DNA of 64,000 bases from a virus. Position numbers and translations under genes: made by a program. The notes below the pieces were generated by a model. It did not search any database. It was not told the DNA's origin and saw only the letters and a program-made list of their open reading frames with translations. The DNA is taken from IMG/VR virus record IMGVR_UViG_3300046804_000544, positions 62,001 through 126,000 of that record, one strand, 5' to 3'. Below, one piece after another: positions 1 to 9,557 of the stretch. Position 1 is the stretch's first letter. The number at the start of each line of letters is the position of its first letter.

Positions 1-1472
1 AAGTAACGTTTAAGAGCAAAACGTTTTGATACATAAGGTTGCTGTACAATTTGAGCAAATGTATTAATACGTTGACCATCAACTTCACTTTGACGATAAG
101 CAGCAAAGTTTAACGGAGGCTGTAACTGTACTTCAAATAAACTACTATCAATGTTGATACCTCTATCATAAAGATAAAGTTTAAATTCTTGATCAAAAGT
201 TTCTTGTAATAGACTTTGTAGTCGTTCGCAATACTTGTTAAAACGCAATTCTTGAATATATGCTGTGCCAACTCGCCCGTCGTTATACTGCGCTTGACTG
301 TCATCTGCACCAGTTGGCAGATAGCTACTTGGAATTCTCAAACCACGGAATAGTTTGTTAGTAAAGTACTTTAAATCGTCAATCTCACCAAGATTCGTTC
401 CTCCTGGTAAAGTTTCAACTTTGGATCCACGTCCTTCAGCAGTTTGTGGGAAGAAGTAATCTTCGTTGATAGATAGCGGGTTGTATGCTGAATCAATAAC
501 GTTAGTGCCACCGCCAGTAGCACTTGGTATTCTTCTTTGATGAATTTCATTTTTAACCCTTTCAACAAAGCTCATAGCTAGGTGACTTGGCATATTACCT
601 ACGTCAACATAGAACACACGTCGTTCTGGAGCACGTTGTACACGATAGATAATAATAGCATCTTCTAACAATTCTTTCTGCTTATAAACTTTAAAAACTT
701 GCTCTAATAAGCTGTTACCAAAAGGATAATTGTTGTCTAAACCTTCACTTAGACTTAGATGAATCATGTGTTTTGCTTCAATAGAAACTTCATTTTGATT
801 ATTGCTAAAACGTGTTCCTGGACTGACTGGATATGCACTAGCTTGTCCTCTTGCTGCGGCACCTCCTGCAATATAAGCAGTGCCGCGATTGTTAGTGTTT
901 ATAGTGTTAGGATTAATTGTTGTAACAACTAAATCTTGAAAGTTTGGATTCAAATCTCTAATTACATACTGTTCAGGAAGTTTGCCTTCACTTTCATTTA
1001 CAATAATTTTAGTAATCTTGCCTGGATCAATGTAAAACCATTTTTTAGTTTCAGGATCACGAATAAAAAATGCATCGCCATACTTAAAAGCGTTGCGTAC
1101 AATTCTAAAAATACGTGTACCAAACTTTTGCATTTTGCACCATTGTTGCAGGTACTCACGTAGAATAGCAATTTCACTGTTAGTGGCCTTACTTCTAAAT
1201 TTTAAATGGAATGGTGTGTTGTTTTCTTCGTTTGGTTGACTGCAAAATTCTGCTAGGATATCTAGTGCAGCATTAACTTCACTGTCGTTATCCATAGTAT
1301 CATACTGCAAATAACGTTCGATACGATTAGGTGCACCTGTATAAACATCGGGCAAATAGCTAGAGTAGTTGGCTCGGGCTGGCCCAGGTCGTGATGACCC
1401 GTTACCTACAGGACTATATGTCCCTGGTTGTGTACCTGTTGAAACAGGATTGAAATATTTTTTCCAGCTCAT
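1..1472 (-). CDS. 20: Portal vertex protein, T4 gp20-like (3' end outside window)
   Basis: I translated the minus strand from the ATG at 1472; the frame stays open to the window edge, so about 490 N-terminal residues are visible and the C-terminus is missing. The portal forms the dodecameric DNA-entry ring at the capsid vertex. The match to T4 gp20 rests on order and motifs: an N-terminal stretch with a DSEVNAALDILAEF-like helix, then FKYGDAFF, and near residue 260 the block RAPERRVFYVDVGNMP, which is a gp20 hallmark, followed by GLRIPSSYLP. The start codon shares one base with the stop of the upstream tape-measure-like gene (TAATG), implying translational coupling. T4 gp20 does not follow a tape measure gene, so the order is rearranged. 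Confidence 0.9.
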   Translation of the reverse strand, partial: MSWKKYFNPVSTGTQPGTYSPVGNGSSRPGPARANYSSYLPDVYTGAPNRIERYLQYDTMDNDSEVNAALDILAEFCSQPNEENNTPFHLKFRSKATNSEIAILREYLQQWCKMQKFGTRIFRIVRNAFKYGDAFFIRDPETKKWFYIDPGKITKIIVNESEGKLPEQYVIRDLNPNFQDLVVTTINPNTINTNNRGTAYIAGGAAARGQASAYPVSPGTRFSNNQNEVSIEAKHMIHLSLSEGLDNNYPFGNSLLEQVFKVYKQKELLEDAIIIYRVQRAPERRVFYVDVGNMPSHLAMSFVERVKNEIHQRRIPSATGGGTNVIDSAYNPLSINEDYFFPQTAEGRGSKVETLPGGTNLGEIDDLKYFTNKLFRGLRIPSSYLPTGADDSQAQYNDGRVGTAYIQELRFNKYCERLQSLLQETFDQEFKLYLYDRGINIDSSLFEVQLQPPLNFAAYRQSEVDGQRINTFAQIVQQPYVSKRFALKRY

Positions 1473-4351
1473 TAACTTGCCTTATATAAATTTGAACTAT
1501 TGCTCTTAGTTGCACTAATTTGTTTATTGAATAAATCTTCAGTTTTGGTAATTAGCTGACCCATCTTAGTATTTAATTGATTTAAACTGGTTACTACGTC
1601 AGATAAGGTAGCTTCTTTAGCGCCGGCGGCGCTTGGCTTGCTATCAGACTTCTTATCGTCTCCTGTCTTTTTAGCAGCATCTCCTTTTTTTGCAGCAGCT
1701 TCATCAACTGGTGTATATTCTTCCCCAGTCTCTGGATTGATTTTTTTACCAGGGCTTGGTGTTTTTTCAGGAATAGTAGCAGCAGCAGCCTTAGTTTGTT
1801 TCATTATAGGCATGCCATTTGGTCCAAGAGAGAAACTATCTAAATTTAGTTTTCCTTCATTGAACACTGGACTAGTACCTGCTGCAAGATCTGCCATTGC
1901 TTGTGCTTTTTTACTCAATTTTCCTGCAGGCTCAGCTGATGCACGTTTCATTGCACCTTCTAAATCACCAAACTCAGTGTCAACATATTGTTGTTCAGGA
2001 GCCTGACGCTTCATTGCACCTTCTAAATCACCAAACTCAGTGTCTGGATACATTTGTTCAGCAGCACGCTTCATTGCCCCTTCTAAATCACCAAACTCAT
2101 CAATTGGCAGTGCATTAGATATATCGGTGCTGATTGATTCTATAGAACTTTCCCAATTATCACCAAAGTCATCAAATCCTTCAACTAAATCTCCTATTGA
2201 CTCTTCAACAACTTTGTTTAATCTATCATACGCTTCTTTATATTTTTCATAAGCAGAATTTAATTCTTCATCAGATGCATTGTCATCATTTAATAATCTA
2301 GTAACATCTTCTTTAGCTTTATCATGCGCTTCTCTAGCTTCATCTATACGCATTTGAGCTAGTTCTTTAGTAAGATTTAAAGGAAACGCATCTGAAATAT
2401 CATTACTAATTTCGTCTAACGATTTGCCCCAACTATCGTTAAAAATATCAAAACTGTCTGAAACATCTGTTGATGTTTCAGTAATTAATCCTGTAAATTC
2501 AGAACTAAAATCTGCAAAAGATTTTTCAAAAGGTCTTGTTAATTCAGCTAGATCAGGACCTTTAATTGTAGTAGAACCCCCACCGCTGGTCTTAGTTGCA
2601 GAACTAAAAGTAGTTGAGATATCTTTAGCAATAGATGAAATATCAACTCCACCTGCAGGTGTTTGTTCAGCTAGTCCTGCCATTGTACCATCTACTGTGT
2701 GTTTTAATAGCTGGTTAAGATCTTCGGGACGCATAATACTTTCTAAACCATGCAACTCTACTAAAGTACCGTCACCCCAATTTTCAAATAATTGTCCGGC
2801 CATTCCTAAAGAACCGCCTTGGCGTTTTGGTGTTGGTAATACTTTTTGTGCTACATCTCCAGCTTTACCAGCAATTGTACCAACATCTCTAGCTACATTT
2901 AATGCAGTACCTTCTATACCGCTGCCTCCTCTAGCATCGCCGGATCGTCGATCTCCTGTTGGTTTATTGCTTGAAGCAGCTCCTTCTTTAACCGCACCTT
3001 CGAGGGCTGGAGCCATTCTTTGATTTGAACCTCCAAATTTTTCTCCGCTAAGGTAACGATCAGCAAATGCACCTAACCCAGGGCCTACTTTTTCATTTAA
3101 TGGAGTTAATAATCCATTCATTAGTGCTGCTCGCGTGTCGTCTACTCTGTTCCCAAAAGCTATCATTGATTTTGTTGCACCGTCTACACTTTTTCCTTCA
3201 GCATCTTTACCTGCTTGAGAATCTTTTACACGTTTCCTAGCTTCAGCTTCGATCTCAGCAGTAGTCATGCGTTGGGCGCCTTTTTCTTTGACGTCTTTTT
3301 CGTTTTCTCTACGAACAGCATCCATAGCATCATACAGACCTCTAGTGGATTTCATTCCGTCCATTATGGTCTTTGATGCAGCATTGTTGTCACCAACTGT
3401 GGCTAAATTTAATTTTGCAACATTTCTTCCATCTTCATATGCAGCTTCTCTACCTCTCTTAGCAGCATCAGCAGCTTCTTGTTCTTGTCCTTTTTGTGTG
3501 GCCAATGCCATGTCTCTTGTAGCTTTGGCCTGTTCTTGATTAATAGCTGCTTGTGTTGCAGCATCTTTACTCATTATTTGTCCTGTAGCAAATATCTCTT
3601 TAAACATTTGCCCTTGACCGCGAGCTTGAGCTTCATTAAACTGTTGAGCATACATTGCTCTAGCTTTTGCTTCAGCTTCAGGACCTTCTTTAATGCCGAT
3701 CAATCGCATCTTAGCTTCAACTTGCATGTCCATCTGAGCTTTTTTCATGTTTTCCATTTGCTCTTCACGGCTCTTGCCAGTCAGCTTGGCCATTAGGTCC
3801 ATTTCAGTTGCTAGCTTTGCAGCAGATTCATACGCTTCTTGATCTCTCTGTTTACCGTCCTTCATTGAAGAACGCATAAATCCCATTTGAGTTGCTAGTA
3901 CTTCATTGAGGTCTTTGTTGGTGTAGCCCATTTGTTTAAGGCTTTCAGCTGCACCACTATCGTACATTTGTTTGCTAACTTCAGCAAAACGTTTAGCACC
4001 ATCAACAGCATTACCACCAAATCCTACAAAATCAGCAGCATTCTTTTTAACTACTTCTGCAAATTCTTGTAATGGTAATCTAGTTCCGGCTGCGGCAACC
4101 GTCATTCCAATAACATCGTTATTGAAACTAGCTCCCGACTTGCTTAAATCACGCCAGGTATTAAGACCTTTTTCTAATCCTTCTGCTAGAGATTTTGCAC
4201 CATCACCTGCATTTTTTAATGCATTAGTAAATGGGTTCATTGCGGCAGTAGCGTCGCCAACTTTTTTGTCAACGGCACTGATACCAGTGCCTTTTGATAC
4301 TGATTTGTTTAACTGTTTCAGTTGTTCTACAATTTCGTCATTAGTTGCCAT
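1472..4351 (-). CDS. Probable tail tape-measure / internal tail protein
   Basis: About 959 residues from the ATG at 4351. An in-frame TTG lies 15 bases upstream, but the ATG has GGAAAA upstream at suitable spacing. The N-terminal half is Ala/Lys/Glu/Gln-rich and predicted helical or coiled coil. A central segment (about residues 510-560) reads GGSLGMAGQLFENWGDGT then VELHGLESIM, resembling the glycine-rich '(G)LFxxxGxGTxxxLHGxE' segment near the C-terminus of many phage tape measure proteins. Further on, three tandem copies of a roughly 21-residue unit, EFGDLEGAMKR, occur. The C-terminus is Lys/Ala-rich. T4 gp29 is shorter, about 590 residues. The divergent neighbour is a gp26-type chaperone, which in phages partners the tape measure, and that supports the call. 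An alternative is another internal virion protein. Confidence 0.6.
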   Translation of the reverse strand: MATNDEIVEQLKQLNKSVSKGTGISAVDKKVGDATAAMNPFTNALKNAGDGAKSLAEGLEKGLNTWRDLSKSGASFNNDVIGMTVAAAGTRLPLQEFAEVVKKNAADFVGFGGNAVDGAKRFAEVSKQMYDSGAAESLKQMGYTNKDLNEVLATQMGFMRSSMKDGKQRDQEAYESAAKLATEMDLMAKLTGKSREEQMENMKKAQMDMQVEAKMRLIGIKEGPEAEAKARAMYAQQFNEAQARGQGQMFKEIFATGQIMSKDAATQAAINQEQAKATRDMALATQKGQEQEAADAAKRGREAAYEDGRNVAKLNLATVGDNNAASKTIMDGMKSTRGLYDAMDAVRRENEKDVKEKGAQRMTTAEIEAEARKRVKDSQAGKDAEGKSVDGATKSMIAFGNRVDDTRAALMNGLLTPLNEKVGPGLGAFADRYLSGEKFGGSNQRMAPALEGAVKEGAASSNKPTGDRRSGDARGGSGIEGTALNVARDVGTIAGKAGDVAQKVLPTPKRQGGSLGMAGQLFENWGDGTLVELHGLESIMRPEDLNQLLKHTVDGTMAGLAEQTPAGGVDISSIAKDISTTFSSATKTSGGGSTTIKGPDLAELTRPFEKSFADFSSEFTGLITETSTDVSDSFDIFNDSWGKSLDEISNDISDAFPLNLTKELAQMRIDEAREAHDKAKEDVTRLLNDDNASDEELNSAYEKYKEAYDRLNKVVEESIGDLVEGFDDFGDNWESSIESISTDISNALPIDEFGDLEGAMKRAAEQMYPDTEFGDLEGAMKRQAPEQQYVDTEFGDLEGAMKRASAEPAGKLSKKAQAMADLAAGTSPVFNEGKLNLDSFSLGPNGMPIMKQTKAAAATIPEKTPSPGKKINPETGEEYTPVDEAAAKKGDAAKKTGDDKKSDSKPSAAGAKEATLSDVVTSLNQLNTKMGQLITKTEDLFNKQISATKSNSSNLYKAS
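1936..2102 (-). repeat. Three tandem in-frame repeats in the tape-measure-like gene
   Basis: The block encoding EFGDLEGAMKR is repeated three times at about 1942-1982, 2007-2044 and 2068-2102, with a period of roughly 63-66 bases. The DNA of the core (gcttcattgcaccttctaaa and following bases) is nearly identical between copies, indicating recent duplication within the coding sequence. Residues between the copies vary. Confidence 0.85.
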
Positions 4352-4376
4352 TAAATTTTCCAGCAAAATCTGCGTA

Positions 4377-4411: not shown

Positions 4412-5236
4412 ATGAGCCAACCAAACCCATTACAGCGTTATTTTAGACAACCAAAGTTGTATGTTACTTTGCCTAGCAAAGGTTTGTTCTACGAACCTGG
4501 CGCATTTCAAGGTGATTATAATCAAGTTCCTGTGTTTGCCATGACTGGTATGGACGAGTTGATTATGAAAACTCCAGATGCATTGTATAGCGGCGAAGCT
4601 ACAGCTAAAGTTATAGAAAGTTGCTGTCCTTACATTAAAAATGCTGGATTGATGCCTAGCATTGATATTGATGCGTTAATGGTAGCTATAAGAATTGCAA
4701 CATTTGGAGAAACTATGGACATTTCTCATACTTGCAAAAATTGCGGCACAGAAAATAGTTATGACATTAACCTAACAAATTTTATGGAATATTTCAATAA
4801 CCTTAAATTTGTTAATTCAATAGATGCAGGAAATGGTATGTCAATTAAAATTCGACCTTTACAATATAATGAAATGAGTTATTTCAGTATAGAAAATTAT
4901 AAACTGCAAAAAACTCTATTTCAAATAAATGAATTAAAGGATGAAGAAAAACAAACACAAATAGATGCTATCTATAAAAATCTAAGTGAGTTACAACTTC
5001 AATTATTTTTAACTGTAATTGAATCTGTATCTACTCCAGACGGTACTGTAACAGAAAAAGCTCACATAGAAGATTGGTTAAGAAATACAGAAAGAACGCA
5101 CTATGCTCTAATTAAAGAAAAATTAGAGTCTAATAAAGAAACTTGGTCTGTGCCTTCTCAACCAATTGTTTGTTCTAATTGCCAGCACAAAGATGAATTA
5201 AGTGTAACATTGGACCAATCAAATTTTTTCGGTTAA
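4412..5236 (+). CDS. 26: Baseplate hub assembly chaperone, T4 gp26-like
   Basis: 274 residues with the LPSKG motif near residue 20 (TLPSKGLFYEPG), typical of the T4 baseplate gp26 family (PF12322 as I recall it). Two CxxC pairs, CKNC near residue 109 and CSNC near residue 255, look like a split zinc-binding site. In T4, gp26 with gp51 and gp28 assists assembly of the hub around tape measure gp29. The last codons contain the heptamer T TTT TTC in frame for a -1 slip, and a gp51-like frame continues beyond the stop, so two products of 274 and about 350 residues are expected, like lambda G and GT. An exact late promoter lies upstream. Confidence 0.8.
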   Translation: MSQPNPLQRYFRQPKLYVTLPSKGLFYEPGAFQGDYNQVPVFAMTGMDELIMKTPDALYSGEATAKVIESCCPYIKNAGLMPSIDIDALMVAIRIATFGETMDISHTCKNCGTENSYDINLTNFMEYFNNLKFVNSIDAGNGMSIKIRPLQYNEMSYFSIENYKLQKTLFQINELKDEEKQTQIDAIYKNLSELQLQLFLTVIESVSTPDGTVTEKAHIEDWLRNTERTHYALIKEKLESNKETWSVPSQPIVCSNCQHKDELSVTLDQSNFFG

Positions 5237-5463
5237 AGCTGTTAAGACTGTCGAACTCTCAAATTGAAGAATTTATTAAATCTATAGATCATTCCGCAAA
5301 AGAATTAAAAGAAGAAATTTTTAGATTAGCATGGTATATGAGAGGTGGTGTTAACAGCGATGACTTATTTCACAAATATTCTTATGAAGATAGAGTTATT
5401 ATAAACGAAATTGTCAAAGACAATATTGAAATAACTAAAAAAACTGGAATGAATTTAATTTAA
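5197..5463 (+). CDS. 51: gp51-like extension made by -1 frameshifting from gp26
   Basis: The -1 frame relative to the gp26 gene is open from 5197 (after a TGA at 5194-5196) to the TAA at 5461-5463. It has no ATG, GTG or TTG before the internal Met of YMRGG, so it lacks a plausible start. Slipping on TTTTTTC at 5224-5230 joins gp26 codon 273 to CGG at 5230 and adds 77 residues: RLKLLRLSNSQIEEF, then WYMRGGVNSDD and SYEDR. The 'YMRGG ... (S/Y)xxDR/ER' pattern is that of T4 gp51 and the C-terminal parts of tail-assembly chaperones. The reading frame overlaps the converging gene at 5455-6582 by nine bases. No strong downstream stem-loop is obvious. Confidence 0.75.
   Translation: MKCNIGPIKFFRLKLLRLSNSQIEEFIKSIDHSAKELKEEIFRLAWYMRGGVNSDDLFHKYSYEDRVIINEIVKDNIEITKKTGMNLI
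5224..5230 (+). promoter_or_regulatory. Programmed -1 ribosomal frameshift slippery site
   Basis: TTTTTTC is read as T TTT TTC in the zero frame, a canonical X XXY YYZ heptamer. The overlapping A AAT TTT at 5221-5227 is also in phase. The zero frame stops two codons later (GGT TAA), and the -1 frame then runs 78 codons to 5463. Confidence 0.75.
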
Positions 5464-7779: not shown

Positions 7780-9557
7780 TCTTCAATTTCTAAATCGTTA
7801 GCATAACTGGTAAAACCGTTTTCTTTAACAACTTTTAACACATTGTTAACACGACCTACCAATTCATCTTTGTGGCTGATGAGATAAATGTTTTTATTAC
7901 GTTCACGAGCCATCTTCTTCAATACTGCTAGTGCATTTTCGACACCGGCAGCATCTAAACCGTTGTCAATCAATTCATCGATAAACAACAAATTGATATT
8001 TTGATATAGGCTTTCCCATACATCACGGAAACTCCAGCTCAATCCTAAGATCAATCTGTTGCGTTCACCACGCGACAAGTTGTCAAAGTCTAAATCTTGT
8101 CCTAATTGCGTAATTTCTACATTCAAATCGTTTAAGAAACTGACTTGATGCGGTAATCCCATCTTGTCAAGATAGTAAGTTAATCTGTTATTCAAATAGG
8201 CCAAGTTCTGATCAATAATCTTTTTACGGATAAAACTGTCTTTGTTAGTTAATAACTTGAGTAGGAACTCTTGATGATCTTTCAAACTGGTCAACGCATT
8301 AATGTTATCCCAACTGATTGTTTGTATAGCAGTCTTACGTAGGTCATCAATCTGTTCTTGATATGGATCTACTTCTTGTTGACGAATAGCCAATGCATTT
8401 TCTAAACTGGTTAAATTGTTTTGGTGCTTGAGTGCTTCTTCAAGAGCGTCATAATAGGTGGTAGGTCGCCCATTAATGTCACCTATTGCATCTAATTCTT
8501 GAATAATCGAAGCATAACTATCGCTGAGTCCCTGCAAATAGATAAGCGCATCTTCTAAATTCTTTTCAGCAATAGCAGTCATTTCTTCATGCGTCTGCGT
8601 ATGTACACCTTGTTTACAACTTGGACAAGTATTATTTTTTAATTGTTCTACTTCTTCTTGATATTTTGTTACTTGTTTGTCTGCTTGTGTAATTGCAGTT
8701 TCTATAGTGGCTTTTTCTTTGTTAAGACTTTTGATCTTAGCTGATAGTTCGTCGTATACCTTTAGTTTAGCATGTTGCTCTAATTCACGTTCAATATCAA
8801 CTGCTTGTAATTCCAGTATGCTAGCAGCAATCTTTTCACAGTCTGATTTTTGTTGTGCATACCAAGCCTTTTGTCTAGTTTCTAAACCAGAAATGCTTTG
8901 TTCAATCTTATCGTTAGAACGTTTAGCTGCTTCAATATCAGCAGTTTCTTGTGTAATAGCATCTTTAGTATTACGTATCTGTTCTTTAAGCAGTTCTGCT
9001 TTCTCACTTAGCAGTGTAATACCTAGCAATTGTTCAATAATTTCTCTTTGTTCGTTTGCTTTTAAACTTAAAAATGGCTCGGTATAAGTGTTTAAAGCCA
9101 CAATATGACGGAACATGTCGTGACTCATACCTAATAATTGATCAATATCCTTTTGTGTTTCACGCATGTCACCTTGACTATCGTCAGTTTCTTCTGCGCC
9201 TTGCTCTTGATCATTAACATAGAACTTCATCACAGTGGGTTTGCGTCCACGCTCGATCTTATACTTGTTACCATCTTTGTCAAACGTCAGGGTGACCAAC
9301 ATGTTTTTACCATTAATCTTGTTGATCAGGTTATCTTTCTTAATGTTAGTCAGCGCCTGCCCATATAATGCGAAACTTAACGCATTAACAATAGTAGTCT
9401 TACCAGTGCCGTTTCGAGAGCCGGAATCGTCACCTCCTTGGTCCAAGTTCTCGCCTAGAACGAGCGTTAAGTTTTCTTTACCAAAATTTACGGCCTGGGT
9501 TTGATTGCCCACGCTCATAAAGTTTTTAACGGTTAATTCTTTTAGTTTTAAACTCAT
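7776..9557 (-). CDS. 46: Recombination endonuclease subunit gp46 (Rad50/SbcC-like ATPase)
   Basis: 593 residues with the full Rad50/SbcC layout: Walker A GSRNGTGKTT at about 46-55, long coiled-coil arms, a zinc hook CPSC near residue 310, the ABC signature LSRGERNRL near 500, and Walker B NLLFIDEL near 525. It partners gp47 as the ATPase of the exonuclease complex that resects DNA ends for T4-type recombination-dependent replication and host DNA degradation. Its ATG overlaps the gp47 stop by four bases, and it belongs to the minus-strand gp55-gp47-gp46 transcription unit. The length is close to T4 gp46 (560). Confidence 0.95.
   Translation of the reverse strand: MSLKLKELTVKNFMSVGNQTQAVNFGKENLTLVLGENLDQGGDDSGSRNGTGKTTIVNALSFALYGQALTNIKKDNLINKINGKNMLVTLTFDKDGNKYKIERGRKPTVMKFYVNDQEQGAEETDDSQGDMRETQKDIDQLLGMSHDMFRHIVALNTYTEPFLSLKANEQREIIEQLLGITLLSEKAELLKEQIRNTKDAITQETADIEAAKRSNDKIEQSISGLETRQKAWYAQQKSDCEKIAASILELQAVDIERELEQHAKLKVYDELSAKIKSLNKEKATIETAITQADKQVTKYQEEVEQLKNNTCPSCKQGVHTQTHEEMTAIAEKNLEDALIYLQGLSDSYASIIQELDAIGDINGRPTTYYDALEEALKHQNNLTSLENALAIRQQEVDPYQEQIDDLRKTAIQTISWDNINALTSLKDHQEFLLKLLTNKDSFIRKKIIDQNLAYLNNRLTYYLDKMGLPHQVSFLNDLNVEITQLGQDLDFDNLSRGERNRLILGLSWSFRDVWESLYQNINLLFIDELIDNGLDAAGVENALAVLKKMARERNKNIYLISHKDELVGRVNNVLKVVKENGFTSYANDLEIEE

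Follow-up and report, generated by a model that had tools for sequence, protein, structure and literature searches.

Do the two overlapping reading frames at positions 4412–5463 of the window encode two proteins, or a short and a long form of one? The window is the whole 64,000-base stretch of DNA analysed here, corresponding to bases 62,001–126,000 of a virus record of 132,916 bases. Within it, a 274-codon frame runs from 4412 to a stop codon ending at 5236 on the + strand, and a second frame, offset by -1, is open from 5197 to a stop codon at 5461–5463. A preliminary description of the locus had interpreted the arrangement as a programmed -1 frameshift that joins counterparts of T4 gp26 and gp51 into one expressed unit, by analogy with the G/GT tail chaperones of phage lambda.

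In lambda, a -1 shift close to the 3' end of a single gene yields a short and a long tail assembly chaperone, the short form being in excess; the tape measure protein is coated by gpG, the tail tube protein is bound by the T part of gpGT, and G–T frameshifting is described as conserved "except T4" (PMC5009743). A T4 account lists gp26 and gp51 as hub assembly chaperones (Table 2) and gives gp51 as absent from the particle (PMC3004832). The tail assembly chaperones of T4-like phages, which belong to the same gp26/gp51 family as the window gene, are the subject of Vladimirov, Gautam and Davidson (2022, Virology 566:9-15), and the frameshift principle is already published for this group. In two papers citing that work, some T4-like phages are stated to have one short and one long gene in place of the frameshift (PMC10885494), and poly-T signals are described as known in the genes of the T4-like chaperone N domain, TAC-N (PMC12846349).

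Zero-frame protein and genomic context

The 274-residue product of 4412–5236, designated TAC-N, matched the Pfam family T4_baseplate (PF12322; E 1.8e-20) and phrog_150, baseplate hub (E 5.8e-22), and homology to the N domain of T4 gp26/gp51 was thereby found; the protein also contains two CxxC pairs. It gave the only PF12322 match in the whole 132,916-base record. An AlphaFold2 model was obtained with a mean pLDDT of 84.3. Searches of the PDB with the N domain returned no structural match at E ≤ 0.001 and a best E of 0.59 by sequence. In BFVD, the model matched proteins of the baseplate-hub family (annotated or unnamed) and uncharacterised phage proteins. Some of the latter are uncharacterised proteins of roughly 450–690 aa from other large phages (for example Erwinia phages Special G and phiEaH2 and Achromobacter phage Motura), which may be the chaperones of those phages. 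The neighbouring gene (1472–4366, - strand; 964 aa) is transcribed divergently and had no informative family match in Pfam or PHROG. In phage RaK2 the gene at this position carries a note of similarity to a tape measure protein, and by this synteny the neighbour is probably the tape measure protein of the window phage.

A slippery heptamer and the minus-1 extension

The zero frame closes with AAT TTT TTC GGT TAA (Asn-Phe-Phe-Gly-stop; the protein ends in SN-FF-G) and includes T TTT TTC at 5224–5230 (+ strand). This is an in-phase XXXYYYZ heptamer near the end of the zero frame, four codons before the stop and in the register needed for a tandem -1 slip, as had been reported for this site. Across the 54 window ORFs that encode at least 100 aa (21,609 codons), TTTTTTC occurs in this phase twice, and one of the two occurrences is the site at 5224–5230. 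A slip here is predicted to join residues 1–273 to 77 residues encoded in the -1 frame (RLKLL...GMNLI, designated TAC-C; 5230–5463 including the stop, + strand), giving a product of 350 aa. The earlier statement that the -1 frame runs to 5463 without a usable start codon also held: its first ATG, GTG or TTG is the ATG at 5338, from which the last 41 aa only would be made. The open frame taken alone is weak evidence, because a -1 extension at least 74 codons long accompanies 10 of these 54 ORFs, and it was rejected as a stand-alone argument. The extension was modelled as entirely helical at low confidence (pLDDT 69.9), and the window's -1 peptide had no match among the Pfam and PHROG families.

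Conservation of the junction in related phages

Junctions were compared in a table of 119 rows, from which three T4 loci and 11 reverse-strand loci were omitted and in which cyanophages are represented by the best 80 of their 591 matching loci. Single-protein scans with gp26 of 121Q and Atu_ph07 had contributed four loci, two of them the query records again. For tallies of codons and representatives, 8 same-record duplicates were removed, leaving 111 rows, and clustering at 70% identity yielded 27 representatives. TTTTTTC was present in 113/119 rows, again with the cyanophages as the best 80 of 591 matches. Comparison with related phages had been proposed as a check on the heptamer, and it came out in its favor: with the cyanophages sampled in the same way, 23 of the 27 representatives have TTTTTTC, one has TTTTTTG, two have TTTTTTT, and one has no heptamer. 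Among the named relatives outside T4 whose junctions were read, an XXXYYYZ heptamer is present in 16 of 17. TTTTTTC is kept in Phosso, PA5oct, 121Q, GAP32, RaK2, Atu_ph07, Vibrio phage 2.275.O, SCTP-2, Hallingskeid, XaC1, CBB, cyanophage Sf-FS3 and Rhizobium phage IC12; RL38J1 has TTTTTTG, XacN1 and CM1 have seven T, and the exception is Pseudomonas phage Cygsa01. All 11 IMG/VR relatives, which were found with junction-free peptide patterns, retained TTTTTTCG and a -1 ORF at the same place.

Conservation extends to synonymous positions. The codon before Phe-Phe varies (AGT, AAT, CAT, GAT, TCT, CGT, GCT or TAT) and ends in T in every case. Given the amino acids and each gene's own codon usage, the choice of NNT TTT TTC in 26 representatives (Cygsa01 omitted) had a log10 P of -28.8, a value that overstates the strength of the result because shared ancestry is ignored. 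T4 gp26 (gene end at positions 7803–7850 of locus L018), which lacks such an extension, also has Phe-Phe near its C-terminus, spelled TTC TTT, and its -1 frame stops there; the Phe-Phe pair thus persists where there is no slip, and the slippery spelling does not. Over 21 pairs, pn/ps of the -1 ORF was 0.11–0.66, comparable to the 0.07–0.55 of the gp26 part, with many pairs synonymously saturated; among the close relatives of the window it was 0.25–0.66, and the closest pair gave 0.11. By this measure the -1 ORF is under purifying selection, and the conservation among relatives excludes chance as the origin of the combined heptamer and -1 ORF.

A proposed downstream stem and an upstream Shine-Dalgarno-like element

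Downstream of the window heptamer, GCTGTTAA (5238–5245) pairs with TTAACAGC (5351–5358), a match equalled in 0/200 shuffles. The proposed stimulatory stem comprises a 5' arm at 5238–5248 (GCTGTTAA-G-AC), which begins at the eighth base after the heptamer, and a 3' arm at 5348–5358 (GT-G-TTAACAGC), both on the + strand, with eight contiguous pairs plus two. Folding of the 135 nt from 5231 to 5365 gave -27.0 kcal/mol (z -1.84), with 11/200 shuffles at least as good, and as a whole fold the long-range stem is of moderate significance. The partner is unusually distant, approximately 120 nt after the heptamer, in the codons for the residues following YMRGG, and its position differs from that in the nearest relative (L001). 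A local hairpin was considered as the stimulator in the window and rejected: none was found after the heptamer, where the predicted folds of the first 55–100 nt were poorer than those of shuffled sequence (z +1.2 to +2.6).

The position of the 5' arm was examined in 25 representatives (Cygsa01, which has no heptamer, and L046, which is short, were omitted) by testing 14 bases from +5 after the heptamer, and the same arm at other offsets, for complementarity to downstream RNA against shuffles. Complementarity was seen at offsets +1 to +7 and not outside them, with a mean z between -1.6 and -2.2, and had faded by offset 8–10. At offsets 2–6 the mean z was about -2.1 to -2.2 and 9–12 of the 25 representatives were significant, compared with a z near zero and 0–1 of 25 at each of ten upstream control offsets. 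There is a clear family-wide preference for complementarity between an arm that starts 5–8 nt after the heptamer and the RNA downstream. The start of the partner varies, from some 25 nt downstream in cyanophages, through 43–67 nt in six loci (L001, L003, L008, L010, L012 and L017), to 144 nt in SCTP-2. In the shuffle test the stem was weak in L016, L019, L021 and L057, and there was no clear stem in L002, L014, L015, L026–L028 and L130. The cyanophage hairpin showed modest covariation, with one of its ten pairs changed on both sides; 89.3% of cells pair in the alignment, against 27.9–57.6% when it is slid.

Five cyanophage loci (L020, L046, L049, L057 and L104) carry, in addition, a Shine-Dalgarno-like element upstream of TTTTTTC. 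This match to the anti-Shine-Dalgarno sequence (GGAGGG or GAGGG; -6.1 to -9.8 kcal/mol) ends about 9 nt before the heptamer. Known Shine-Dalgarno stimulators of frameshifting, such as that of dnaX, occupy this place. At the corresponding position in the window the match is weak (-3.0 kcal/mol). A tentative model, which we regard as possible, is that the chaperone genes of the T4 superfamily share one recoding signal in which the slippery site and the 5' arm keep their places and the partner has shifted repeatedly in evolution, lying between about 25 and about 144 nt downstream; that the ratio of short to long product in the window phage might be set by a long-range stem melted by each shifting ribosome; and that cyanophages may have added an upstream Shine-Dalgarno stimulator.

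Frameshifting or separate expression

The principal alternative is that the -1 ORF is a small gene of its own, whose translation begins at an overlapping or non-standard codon through coupling or re-initiation. Some relatives have features that count in its favor and against a frameshift: in Phosso, 121Q, Atu_ph07 and cyanophages an ATG lies -4, -1 or +2 from the stop of the zero frame, and for Phosso, 121Q and Sf-FS3 the annotation starts a separate gene at the overlapping ATG. More generally, the extension is annotated in relatives as a separate hypothetical gene or is omitted, and a joined frameshift gene is marked in none of the 16 annotated records examined for the gp26/gp51 family outside T4 and P1-like phages (the record of CM1 carries no annotation). 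However, the position of the overlapping ATG wanders, and it is directly preceded by the T run rather than by a ribosome binding site. The window has no ATG, GTG or TTG before 5338, and the same holds for the -1 frame as far as +12 nt of the stop in 11 of the 27 representatives, the window included. The -1 reading is conserved from the heptamer onward (FFR...), before any ATG is reached, and the cyanophage Shine-Dalgarno element, at a distance of about 24 nt, is too remote from the annotated gp51 ATG to start it.

The preliminary description had named two observations as counter-evidence, a normal start codon for the second frame in homologues and a missing heptamer. The former was found in form, as the ATG codons above, yet all of the relatives with such an ATG, except Cygsa01, keep a heptamer; the latter was found in one of the 17 named non-T4 relatives, again Cygsa01. 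In that phage (L022:1780–1815) the heptamer is replaced by C ATT TTC, the junction is TAATG, and upstream of it the -1 frame contains no stop for 35 codons; because of these three features it may use a coupled start, and a switch from frameshifting to coupled translation is possible there. As an explanation of the window, a separate gene is very unlikely.

Slippage of the polymerase on the six-T run, which would join the frames at the level of the transcript, is less probable still. A homopolymer run is present and reaches seven T in XacN1 and CM1, but it stays at six T in nearly all relatives and has not been lengthened, and the spacing of the stem and the cyanophage Shine-Dalgarno element are signals addressed to ribosomes that polymerase slippage would not need. 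A sequencing error or a decayed in-frame gene, for which no supporting point was found, is refuted by the same arrangement in at least 100 loci and in isolate genomes of several genera, and by purifying selection in the -1 frame.

Relationship to T4 gp26 and gp51

Programmed frameshifting remains the preferred reading, and it bears on how the products correspond to those of T4. Both T4 proteins are full-length members of PF12322 (gp26, E 8.8e-64; gp51, E 3.9e-52) and are similar to each other, with gp51 continuing for about 50 residues beyond its gp26-like part; by sequence, gp51 is a gp26 paralogue with a C-terminal extension. Across 18 records, T4 has two PF12322 genes and 16 of the 17 others have one; in SCTP-2 the family model gave no match and gp26 was located by tblastn. 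Since gp26 and gp51 are both full-length family members, the counterpart of gp51 is the predicted long product rather than the -1 segment alone, and gp26 corresponds to the short product. The earlier proposal of a gp26–gp51 fusion is thus upheld as regards a single frameshifted unit and needs revision as regards gp51, which already contains the whole gp26-like domain. The description of the extension as "gp51-like" on the basis of YMRGG was not borne out, as this motif is conserved in close relatives of the window and absent from T4 gp51.

Direct homology between the window-type -1 peptide and T4 gp51 was sought with hhalign and not found (E 0.12). An indirect path runs through the cyanophages: the window-type extension aligned with the cyanophage type over 32 columns (E 2.8e-4, probability 41%), and the latter aligned with the C-terminus of T4 gp51 (E 2.6e-5). 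The cyanophage -1 peptide matched phrog_634, "baseplate hub assembly catalyst" (E 7.9e-27), and the end of T4 gp51 matches this family as well (E 1.2e-23). At most, then, the -1 segment of the window corresponds to the gp51 tail. T4 shares the PF12322 domain with the window protein, but has two genes and no heptamer in gp26. These comparisons support the view of T4 as the exception, in which the two products have been split into two genes as gp26 and gp51, and they provide an explicit prediction for the role of the gp51 C-terminal tail. Vladimirov and colleagues are said to have found frameshifting kept in several T4-like groups and to have named T4 genes 26 and 51.

Proposed mechanism and relation to known systems

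Genome comparison establishes the slip site, shows that the -1 ORF and the signal are conserved, and reveals a single copy of PF12322 outside T4. From these we infer that the window phage shifts frame at 5224–5230, and that the locus is very probably the tail assembly chaperone locus of a large T4-related myovirus, producing a short and a long form by -1 programmed frameshifting. Most ribosomes would terminate at 5236, releasing the short chaperone of 274 aa. A minority, with tRNA-Phe on TTT-TTC at both the P and the A site, would slip back by one base onto TTT-TTT and translate as far as 5463; the long chaperone so made would have 350 aa and a helical extension at its C-terminus. The efficiency of the shift is presumably influenced by the downstream stem, whose 5' arm at 5238–5248 probably stalls the ribosome and helps to set the ratio of the two forms. 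If the lambda G/GT system is a guide, the tape measure protein would be coated by the short part, and the extension would recruit the tail tube. The lambda parallel drawn in the preliminary description, like its -1 frameshift, is strongly supported by the comparative evidence, and production of short and long tail chaperones in the manner of lambda would extend to several lineages of very large phages.

The likeness to lambda gpG/gpGT lies in a short and a long chaperone from a single gene with a -1 shift near its 3' end. The lambda slippery site is G GGA AAG, compared with T TTT TTC in the window. Unlike in lambda, the N domain of the window protein belongs to its own CxxC-containing family, and the putative tape measure gene is transcribed away from the chaperone gene. 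A parallel in signal is provided by the tail assembly chaperones of the Vandenendeviridae and Andersonviridae, described for phage Adele, which combine a poly-T motif with a conserved -1 ORF, routinely annotated as hypothetical; the motif there, GTTTTT, differs (PMC12846349). A literature search covering few subscription papers found nothing joining jumbo phage, frameshift and tail assembly chaperone, and no prior account of the synonymous constraint, the stem with a mobile partner or the cyanophage Shine-Dalgarno element. What the present analysis adds to the published principle is its occurrence in many lineages of large phages, together with three features of the signal: constraint on synonymous codon choice, a stem arm that is conserved although its partner is mobile, and the Shine-Dalgarno element of cyanophages.

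P1-like phages

PmgB of phage P1 was recognized as a distant gp26 relative (hhalign E 3e-6), and its gene lies between the tail tube and tape measure genes. Three P1-like loci were compared: P1 (NC_005856, 44200–45600; L134), D6 (L135) and Cronobacter phage JK004 (L136). In P1 the +1 frame continues past the PmgB stop, and the extension (NLVLYGGIPIQDAERL...) is conserved in P1, JK004 and D6, which suggests that P1 PmgB undergoes a +1 or -2 frameshift missing from the annotation.
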